DNA of 64,000 nucleotides, from positions 42,722 to 106,721 of the forward strand of contig NZ_AOIV01000003.1 in assembly GCF_000337095.1 (NCBI RefSeq). Reading direction: 5' to 3'. The stretch's first letter is position 1; the number at the start of each line of letters is the position of its first letter. Under the pieces are notes generated by a model. The model was given only the letters and a program-made list of their open reading frames with translations, was not told the origin of the DNA and searched no databases. This stretch comes from Halogeometricum pallidum JCM 14848 (GTDB taxonomy: Archaea > Halobacteriota > Halobacteria > Halobacteriales > Haloferacaceae). Below are positions 61,465-64,000 of this stretch, one piece after another. The translations under genes were made by a program, and so were the position numbers.

Positions 61465-62136
61465 TCACCGTCGGTCCCGCCGCGTCTCCGGCGACGGACG
61501 CTCCCAGTCGCGCACCGCGTCGCCGTGAACCTCCGCCATCACCTTCTCCTCTAAGAGGTTCACCGCGACGCTGTTGGCGCCTTCGGGGATGATGAGGTCG
61601 GCGTGCTTTTTCGTCGGTTCGATGAACTGGTCGTGCATCGGCTTCACCGTCGAGAGATACTGGTCGATGACGCCCTCCAGGTCGCGCCCGCGGTCGATAA
61701 CGTCGCGCTGGATGCGCCGGAGGATGCGCACGTCGGCGTCCGTCTCGACGTAGAGGCGCAGGTCGAGCATCTCGTTTACCTTCTCGTCGTACAGCGCGAG
61801 GATACCCTCGACGATGATGACGTCGGTCGGTTCGACCGTCGTCGGTTCGTTTTTTCGGTTGTGTATCTCGAAGTCGTACACCGGCATCTCGATGGGTCGC
61901 CCCTCCAACAGCGTCGAAAGCTGTTCCCGCAGGAGCTCCCACTCGAACGCCGAGGGGTGGTCGTAGTTGACCGCCTCGCGTTCGGAGAGGTCGAGGTGGC
62001 TCAGATCCTCGTAGTAGTTGTCGATAGGGATGCGCGTGACGGACTCGCCGACGTTCTCCGTAATGAGTCGCGCGACGGTGGTCTTGCCCGCGCCGGTCCC
62101 GCCAGCGATGCCGACGACGAACGACGGGATAGTCAT
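61465..62136 (-). CDS. udk: Uridine kinase
   Basis: The 223-residue P-loop kinase phosphorylates uridine/cytidine in salvage. Walker A is GGTGAGKTT (12-20). Family features include IDNYYEDLSHLDL, YDHPSAFEWELL, DVIIVEGILALYDE and RRIQRDVIDRGR. The ATG at 62136 is the homologous start; an upstream extension is unsupported. Confidence 0.94.
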   Translation of the reverse strand: MTIPSFVVGIAGGTGAGKTTVARLITENVGESVTRIPIDNYYEDLSHLDLSEREAVNYDHPSAFEWELLREQLSTLLEGRPIEMPVYDFEIHNRKNEPTTVEPTDVIIVEGILALYDEKVNEMLDLRLYVETDADVRILRRIQRDVIDRGRDLEGVIDQYLSTVKPMHDQFIEPTKKHADLIIPEGANSVAVNLLEEKVMAEVHGDAVRDWERPSPETRRDRR

Positions 62137-62286
62137 CGATGGAGAACGCGCCCGATTCGGTTTGAGCGTGGCGGTTCGCCCCGGTGGTCGTTCCCGCCGC
62201 CGAAACCGCGTGTCAGTAACTATCACTAGCGTCTCACGGGGGTCAAACGCGCGAAATCGAGGTCTACTGACGGGTCGAAAGGTAGA

Positions 62287-62317: not shown

Positions 62318-63730
62318 ATGGCACGTGATATCGTACGGCGTGACTTTCTGAAAAGAGCGGGTGCGGCCGGGGCAGTCGGCGTGGTGGGGCTGTCGGGATG
62401 CATCGGGAGCCCGGACGACGGGGAAACCGAGACGCAGGGTGAGACCGAAACCGACGCCGGGTCGGGGACCGACGGAGGTACCGGAACCGACTCCGGCAAC
62501 GGCGGCGGCAGCGGCGGCGGCAGTCCCGACGGACTGGTCGTCATCGGCTACCCCGAGAGCGGGATTCAGCTGTTCCGCGACTACTACAGCCAGTCCGAGG
62601 GGTCCGAGGCCATCCTCATCCCCGACGGTCTGCGCGACGGCGCGCTCCCGGCGCAGGTCGGCAACGACATGAACAATGTGACGGGGACGGCGCCGGCGGC
62701 CGGCGGGCCGAACCAGGATGCGTTCGTCTCGCTCTTCGAGGAGGAGTACGGCTCCGCACCCGGCGTGTTCACCTCCCAGTCGTTCGACTCGGCGGCCATC
62801 GGCATCTTGGCGAACGCCGCGGCGGGCGAGAACGGCGGCCCCGCAATCAAAGAGCAGATGCGGCGCATCGCCAACCCGGAGGGGATGGAGGTCGGTCCCG
62901 ACAACTTCGTCGAGGGCGTCGAGGCCGCCGCCAACGGCGAGGACGTCAACTACCAGGGGGCCTCCTCCTCGACCAACTTCGACCAGAACGGCGACCCCGC
63001 TTCCGCGGCGTACGCCATCTGGGAGTTCGACGGCGTCGACTCGCAGTCGACCTCGACCCTCGAGACGCAGTCGTTCGAGGGGCAGAACCCGAACGGCGCC
63101 GGTCCCGCCGCGGACAGCGGACCCGGCGGCAGCGACCGCGAGATATCGCTCGGAATCCTCCTGCCGGAGACCGGCGACCTCGCTTCGACCGGTCAGCCGA
63201 TGATTCAGGCCGCCCAGATTCCGGGCATGCTGGTCAACGACGCGAACCCGGCGGGCCTCTCGGTCAACCAGCAGATAGAGGACACCCAGACCTCGCCGAG
63301 CGCCGGCGTCTCGGCGGCGCAGTCGCTCGCCAGCGCGGGCGTCCCCTTCGTCTGCGGGACGGCCTCTTCGGGCGTCAACGTCCCGGTCTCTCAGCAGGTG
63401 TTCATCCCCAACGAGATGATCGGTTGCTCGCCGTCGTCGACGGCGCTGTCGGTGTCGAACCTGGAGGACAACGACTTCATCTTCCGGACGGCGCCGTCGG
63501 ACCGCCTGCAGGGCCGCGTGATGGCGCAGGTGATGTCCGAACGGCTGAACGCCTCCACGGTGTCGACGCTGTACGTCAACAACGACTACGGCCAGCAACT
63601 TTCGGAGCGCTTCACCAGCGTCTTCGAGAACAGTTTCGACGGGGAGGTGCTCACGCAGGTGGCGTTCAACATCGGCGAGTCCTCGTACTCCTCGGTCATC
63701 GAGTCGGCGCTGTCCGGTTCGAGCAACTGA
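62318..63730 (+). CDS. Branched-chain amino-acid-type binding lipoprotein with permuted domain order
   Basis: The 470-residue protein opens with a Tat signal (RRDFLKRAGAAGAVG) and lipobox Cys28 (GLSGC), then an acidic-glycine linker to about residue 69. Next comes what is normally the C-terminal half of a type-1 periplasmic-binding protein (70-256, starting DGLVVIGYPESGIQLFRDYY). A short Gly/Pro linker (257-272) follows, and then the normal N-terminal half (273-466, starting DREISLGILLPETGDLASTG). The halves therefore appear in reverse order. Both show family features, and the residues at the normal junction are split between the N-side of the first half and the C-terminus. No frame shift or stop is seen. 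It should still bind amino acids or related ligands at the surface. Confidence 0.82.
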   Translation: MARDIVRRDFLKRAGAAGAVGVVGLSGCIGSPDDGETETQGETETDAGSGTDGGTGTDSGNGGGSGGGSPDGLVVIGYPESGIQLFRDYYSQSEGSEAILIPDGLRDGALPAQVGNDMNNVTGTAPAAGGPNQDAFVSLFEEEYGSAPGVFTSQSFDSAAIGILANAAAGENGGPAIKEQMRRIANPEGMEVGPDNFVEGVEAAANGEDVNYQGASSSTNFDQNGDPASAAYAIWEFDGVDSQSTSTLETQSFEGQNPNGAGPAADSGPGGSDREISLGILLPETGDLASTGQPMIQAAQIPGMLVNDANPAGLSVNQQIEDTQTSPSAGVSAAQSLASAGVPFVCGTASSGVNVPVSQQVFIPNEMIGCSPSSTALSVSNLEDNDFIFRTAPSDRLQGRVMAQVMSERLNASTVSTLYVNNDYGQQLSERFTSVFENSFDGEVLTQVAFNIGESSYSSVIESALSGSSN

Positions 63731-63844
63731 GTCGACGACCCCGAATCCGCTTTCTTTCGATGCCGCGTCCCGAGCGACGGCGTCGCGTCGGCACAGCGTC
63801 TCCGTCAGAAAGAGTCCCGAGTCTGAGTCCGAATCCGCGCCGGG

Positions 63845-64000
63845 CTACCCGCCGAGGAAGTCCCGGCGGACCTGCTCGTCCTCTAAGAGCGCCCGCCCGG
63901 AGTCGACGTAGCGGTTCTCGCCGTTGGCGAGGACGTAGCCGCGGTCGCAGCGTCTGAGCGCCTCCTTGGCGTTCTGTTCGACCATCAGCACCGCGGTGCC
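63845..64000 (-). CDS. livF: ABC transporter ATP-binding protein, C-terminal fragment (LivF-like)
   Basis: The last 51 residues of a gene that enters from the right edge: GTAVLMVEQNAKEALRRCDR then GYVLANGENRYVDSG and a final RDFLGG. This is the end of the LivF-type ATPase of branched-chain amino acid ABC importers (H-loop region VEQNA). It is convergent with the permuted binding protein gene rather than in the same operon. Confidence 0.85.
   Translation of the reverse strand, partial: GTAVLMVEQNAKEALRRCDRGYVLANGENRYVDSGRALLEDEQVRRDFLGG

Follow-up and report, generated by a model that had tools for sequence, protein, structure and literature searches.

The window, by which we mean the whole stretch of 64,000 nucleotides analysed, ends with a gene for a substrate-binding protein (SBP) placed tail to tail with the first gene of a livF-livG-livM-livH set (Table 1). 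The set extends past the window end, reaching about position 6319 in L008. The sources that name the protein call it simply a substrate-binding protein. The putative TATA-like element upstream of the gene would fit a leaderless haloarchaeal transcript. The divergent uridine-kinase-like neighbour is retained in many Haloferacaceae loci and is absent from that place in most others. A single N in livF, with an exact 89-bp direct duplication on both sides (G000:C3:106722; L008:2134-2312), marks an assembly joint, which adds a false repeat to livF and at which the window stops exactly (position 64000).

Table 1. Features of the SBP gene and its surroundings (positions in the window; residues of the window protein).
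Feature	Position	Strand	Remarks
Uridine-kinase-like gene	61465-62226	-	Divergent, upstream; named by eye
TATA-like TTTATAAA	62287..62294	+	~27 bases 5' of the ATG; by eye
Circularly permuted type I substrate-binding lipoprotein, 470 aa	62318..63730	+	P1 order: leader - tether - C half - linker - N half
Leader, residues 1-28	62318..62401	+	RR motif, hydrophobic stretch, lipobox-like LSGC; by eye, conserved in alignment of relatives
Acidic, Gly/Ser/Thr-rich tether, residues 29-69	62402..62524	+	Length varies among relatives
C-terminal half of canonical proteins, residues 70-256	62525..63085	+	Contains Tyr78 and Asp103
Linker NPNGAGPAADSGPGGS, residues 257-272	63086..63133	+	Joins the old C and N termini
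N-terminal half of canonical proteins, residues 273-466	63134..63715	+	PF13458 1-187; contains Ser351, Ser373 and Thr375
Tail GSSN and stop	63716..63730	+	New C terminus, at a loop unbroken in canonical relatives (...SALSGNPDTLIVVGYPESG...)
Gap between the two convergent genes	63731..63844		114 bases
3' part of livF	63845..64000	-	First of convergent livF-livG-livM-livH; liv names from sequence resemblance

The gene encodes a LivJ-like (PF13458) substrate-binding lipoprotein in circularly permuted form. The protein matched PF13458 with 81.3 bits (curated cut-off 31.7), and the best stretch, residues 275-464, corresponded to profile positions 1-186 of 343. In a profile search of its own genome (45 contigs, 4.38 Mb), the DNA encoding the C half (C3:105246-105593) matched positions 191-312, and the match to positions 1-187 followed it; this was the only protein of the genome with the profile in two reversed stretches, the five others having one stretch each. 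A canonical relative was matched over positions 2-312 as a single stretch. With segments 1-187 and 191-312 swapped, canonical relatives in which the halves adjoin, and no single in-order stretch of its own, the window protein is a naturally permuted member of the family and not a canonical one. In a rotation scan against a profile built from 121 canonical SBPs of haloarchaea, the best-domain score was 72.8 bits for the native order and 108.5 bits for the best rotations, which cut at residues 265-273, in or beside the linker, within a plateau of ~106-108 bits for cuts from ~229 to 369. Residues 275-459 aligned by sequence with residues 10-192 of PDB 4n0q. The predicted structure had a pLDDT of 81.6 and a pTM of 0.78, residues 1-66 being under 50 in pLDDT, and the matches listed by sequential structure searches mostly spanned one half of the protein. 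The original prediction, which had read the order leader, acidic tether, residues 70-256, linker and residues 273-466 from the sequence, is thus borne out by the profile matches, the rotation scan, the homologues and the structural data, including the separate comparison of the two halves with the LivJ-like family, both of which match PF13458 in reversed order. The leader is putatively of the Tat/lipobox type that it proposed: the RR motif and the lipobox cysteine of LSGC were seen by eye, the match of the TAT_signal model to the leader (E 0.029) lying below the cut-off of that model.

The permuted order was shared by relatives. A protein search returned 1292 matches, and the query and the 120 matches listed, one of which is the window's own protein, all displayed the permuted order (121/121); the linker had 16 residues in the window protein and the same length in the relatives displayed. 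The nearest named relative among the matches listed came from Halogeometricum and shared 95% identity. When named genomes were scanned, 126 loci were obtained; the best 80 of them came from genera including Haloferax, Halobellus, Halorubrum, Natrialba and Haladaptatus, their best segments had 47-83% identity, and some of the records were complete genomes. Homologues with the same order thus form a broad haloarchaeal family, and the window protein is not a one-off. These data bear on misassembly, or a misjoined repeat at the linker, as the source of the order. An assembly joint does lie 3 kb away in the contig, one base past the window end, but the order and the linker are common to all 120 matches listed (of 1292) and to the named genomes, some of them complete, so that this explanation is extremely improbable for the window gene, in agreement with the original prediction that the order was not a sequencing artefact. 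For the family as a whole, misassembly is refuted by the shared order and linker.

Three orders of the same parts were distinguished, n1 designating the strand and helix that open the N half: canonical (n1-N2-C), P1 (C-n1-N2), which is that of the window protein, and P2 (N2-C-n1). Canonical-order relatives of the window protein occur in other haloarchaea, the best being 57% identical. Across 391 genomes sampled from the class (86 genera), a permuted profile matched 171 genomes and 34 genera at E <= 1e-95, a count that includes three genomes with P2 order and one partial gene (G065). A canonical profile matched 183 genomes and 57 genera at E <= 1e-90, a count that may include P2 genes because P2 agrees with this profile along most of its length. 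Matches at E <= 1e-30 were present in 307 of the 391 genomes, many of which had two separate weaker matches rather than one; when 15 of the 307 were re-searched, the best place had the halves adjoining in canonical order in 15/15. A sample of 374 genomes from the phylum yielded 14 matching genomes outside the order at E <= 1e-30: the eight with both halves listed were canonical, and the other six displayed one half. Canonical order was treated as ancestral because the outside-order genomes with both halves listed are canonical.

For comparison of the loci, 96 stretches of 9-18 kb were retrieved and combined with the stretch of the window gene and the 80 named loci. The resulting 177 loci contained 185 SBP open reading frames (ORFs), of which 125 were P1, 56 canonical and 4 P2; four sequences were repeated (L052/L053, L082/L187, L070/L183 and L159/L287), leaving 181 distinct sequences (122, 55 and 4, respectively). 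No fused tandem gene was found among the 185 ORFs. Tandem P1-P1 pairs on one strand were present at seven loci (L071, L073, L074, L075, L076, L182 and L185), the five named ones belonging to Haladaptatus, and such pairs are possible raw material for further permutation. One permuted gene of the C1 type described below, L290 (G065:C2:2081075-2082154), has an early stop and a 368-aa open frame and is possibly decayed or frameshifted. A divergent canonical SBP clade (L169, L171, L268, L284 and L285) had no liv genes in the stretches examined, and several of the genomes concerned hold other family members too.

At both P1 and canonical loci, the SBP gene lies tail to tail with livF-livG-livM-livH. 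All four liv genes were convergent with the SBP gene within 9 kb for 116/125 P1, 43/56 canonical and 4/4 P2 ORFs. The stretch examined had no convergent full set for 9/125 P1 and 13/56 canonical ORFs; two of these 22 ORFs were on contigs under 4.2 kb, two had liv genes elsewhere or in the other orientation, in one only part of the set was recognised, and the rest had none. Three permuted SBP genes of Haloquadratum walsbyi (L025, L031 and L036) had no liv match in their ~6-kb flanks. The positions that we take to be ligand contacts of LivJ (Ser79, Thr102, Tyr202 and Glu226) are kept across the canonical, P1 and P2 orders: among the 185 ORFs, Ser was found in 183, Thr in 183 (2 gaps), Tyr or Phe in 184 and Asp, replacing Glu, in 184. 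The window SBP is likely to deliver amino acids or amides to the adjoining LivHMGF importer. It might instead be an orphan binding or sensing lipoprotein that does not feed this importer: the SBP gene and the liv genes converge and therefore share no common transcript, and the Haloquadratum copies stand without liv genes in the flanks covered. This alternative is unlikely, however, in view of the liv pairing retained by most ORFs of each order and of the three permuted lineages, which are placed alike on the SBP and liv trees presented below.

Since close canonical relatives occupy the equivalent locus, the permutation can be mapped onto a tree. For this purpose, the halves were put in one order and the linkers omitted. 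Dropping same-order rows >80% identical reduced the 185 ORFs to 88, and omission of a distant long row (L051_CAN) left 87, including 40 permuted rows. The counts of order changes given here are independent of the root. The 87-row tree, built by a careful method, required four changes between canonical and permuted order (5-95% range of bootstrap trees, 4-4), three of them forced by starred branches, and a single change was sufficient in 0% of 200 bootstrap trees. The permuted rows fell into a main clade, two further lineages, C1 and C2, and the single gene L179. In AU tests, placing all 40 permuted rows in one clade cost 95.8 log units and was rejected (p-AU 4.4e-6). For pairs of clades, which were chosen after inspection of the tree, grouping was rejected for main with C1 (55.8 log units, p 0.0024), main with C2 (42.9 log units, p 0.012) and C1 with C2 (55.8 log units, p 0.010), and was not rejected for main with L179 (14.4 log units, p 0.16). 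Four changes were also required by the tree of the N half alone, with three forced by starred branches, and by that of the C half alone, with only one forced. A tree of the livHMGF genes, built by a quick method from the 74 of the 87 rows with a convergent set (1317 columns), again gave four changes, three of them forced, and grouped C2, L179 and the canonical L156.

Sequence identities and linkers agreed with this picture. In identity lists comprising 7 C1 and 5 C2 rows, main, C1 and C2 each had a higher identity with some canonical protein (62-65%) than with one another (56-59%). Their linkers are unlike: NPxGxGPSADSGPGGS-like in main, NELSDEDxNATAADPVGVDS-like in C1 and xxxIPQPEPSGSGSDA-like in C2, the last kind being found also in L293, which is absent from the reduced tree. 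The cut is identical in all three, the tails stopping shortly after the helix equivalent to SVIESAL and the heads starting just before the PD of the next strand. Because the lineages were rejected pairwise as single clades, because the half and livHMGF trees need four changes, and because the linkers differ, P1 is likely to have arisen at least three separate times, in main, C1 and C2. Three is the cautious count: a fourth origin, in L179, is not secure, since its grouping with main was not rejected, its linker GSDGGGGSDSIPGSSS resembles main-clade linkers such as GPSADSIPGG, and it joins C2 and L156 on the liv tree.

Two other histories could give the same distribution. A single ancient permutation might have left both orders as paralogues, with gene conversion or exchange with the local canonical copy producing false repeated origins. 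Both orders do coexist in some genomes (G151 and G264, with L178/L284 and L181/L285; G126, G056 and G350), and the support from the C half taken alone is weak. Against this, the same nesting is seen for each half and for the separate livHMGF genes, and a conversion that exchanged the operon and the two halves would have needed to leave untouched the linker, which is unlike in main, C1 and C2; we regard this history as improbable. Alternatively, P1 might be of old standing, with several canonical genes having returned to the ancestral arrangement; the counts, being root-independent, would allow this, and in P2 an old junction has indeed closed again with 2-3 residues. Such reversion would require traceless removal of the linker, the canonical ORFs having a gap of 2-4 residues and no linker at the N-C junction, and it is at odds with the matches in the 14 outside-order genomes, canonical in the eight with both halves listed. 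It is accordingly a rather improbable history, and repeated origin of P1 from canonical genes remains our preferred reading.

P2 represents a second permutation. In L095, from a metagenome scaffold, the protein starts near N-half residue 41; its N and C halves join closely, a main-type linker follows, and the first strand and helix come last. The cut thus falls within the half matching residues 273-466, near residue 311 of the window protein. P2 order was also found in G310, G378 and G386. Of 95 further proteins, 18 had it as well; two of these carry the name Halosolutus and correspond to the G386 and G378 genes, whose contigs measure 5.06 and 3.91 Mb. P2 is nested in the P1 clade and retains the P1 linker, with the cut in the other lobe. 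Since canonical genes are without linker, P2 descends from a linker-bearing form. A 66-row tree including 10 P2 rows required four changes between P1 and P2, a single change being found in 0% of 200 bootstrap trees, and P2 as one clade was rejected (152 log units, 66 rows). One of the four changes may be a return to P1 (L068), so that the number of switches from P1 to P2 is put at three or more, which is likely. In P2 the old junction is closed to a gap of 2-3 residues, and this nearly residue-free rejoining of the old ends is not explained by simple duplication alone.

We infer that the protein folds into an ordinary two-lobed clamp, because a linker of 14-22 residues spans the old termini and both cuts are in helix-to-strand loops. 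In such lobes these loops would face away from the cleft, and the lipid tether would exit from the C lobe in P1 and from the N lobe in the canonical and P2 proteins. The change of order would most likely have proceeded via tandem duplication, fusion and trimming of the ends, and we infer a tandem-duplicate origin for the permutant, as the original prediction had suggested. The first cut (canonical to P1) would likely have been made at least three times, and the second (P1 to P2) at least three times. The account as a whole, namely a permuted LivJ-like feeder of the adjoining LivHMGF importer whose order changed repeatedly, likely at least three times at each of two cuts, is in our judgment probable. 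Its most specific form, in which the same C-lobe permutant arose at least three times from canonical genes, with its own linker each time, and the N-lobe permutant at least three times from P1, keeping the old linker as a fossil, is offered tentatively.

Natural circular permutants are usually met long after the event. The haloarchaeal proteins enable direct tests of which cuts a two-lobed clamp tolerates, of the side of the tether relative to docking on the ABC importer, and of the rate of recurrence at one site, and they also bear on annotation. Among the open-licence texts listed, we found no description of permuted haloarchaeal LivJ-like proteins. The original prediction knew of no described permuted member of the family; among those texts this holds for this subfamily and this cut and does not hold for type I binding proteins at large. 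The nearest precedent, TpMglB-2 (Tp0684) of the bacterium Treponema pallidum, is a lipidated, circularly permuted type I binding protein that binds ligand and closes, and it has been proposed as the founder of 'Type Ic / Cluster Bc' ligand-binding proteins (PMC4990184). It is a homologue of the sugar-binding protein MglB with the first three N-lobe strands at the C terminus, and its authors also weigh tethering as a cause (PMC4990184). The window protein resembles TpMglB-2 in its permuted topology and would do so in its type I fold and lipidation. TpMglB-2 is cut after the third N-lobe strand, whereas P1 proteins are cut in the C lobe and P2 proteins after the first N-lobe helix; the haloarchaeal proteins are LivJ-like, with close canonical relatives at the same locus. 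The window protein falls outside 'Type Ic', its cut being at PF13458 187/191 and its PDB matches being LivJ types and receptors of that fold, with no MglB among them.

The window protein is like LivJ/LivK-type proteins (PF13458; PDB 3td9, 4n0q, 3ipc and 1z15) in that both halves match by sequence, the N half also by predicted fold, and in retaining the presumed amino-acid contact positions; it is unlike them in the order of the halves, the Gly/acidic lipid tether and the internal linker between the old termini. With the canonical haloarchaeal SBPs (L155-L172 and others) it shares the locus and the convergent livHMGF genes, these proteins being at most 65% identical to a permuted lineage, and P1 differs from them in the permuted order and the internal linker. 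Repeated permutation within one fold family is known for DNA methyltransferases and saposin-like proteins, where it is thought to pass through duplication. Unlike those families, the haloarchaeal SBPs display three orders, canonical, permuted and twice permuted, at one conserved locus in one archaeal class and at roughly 55-78% identity, with the importer genes as an independent witness.
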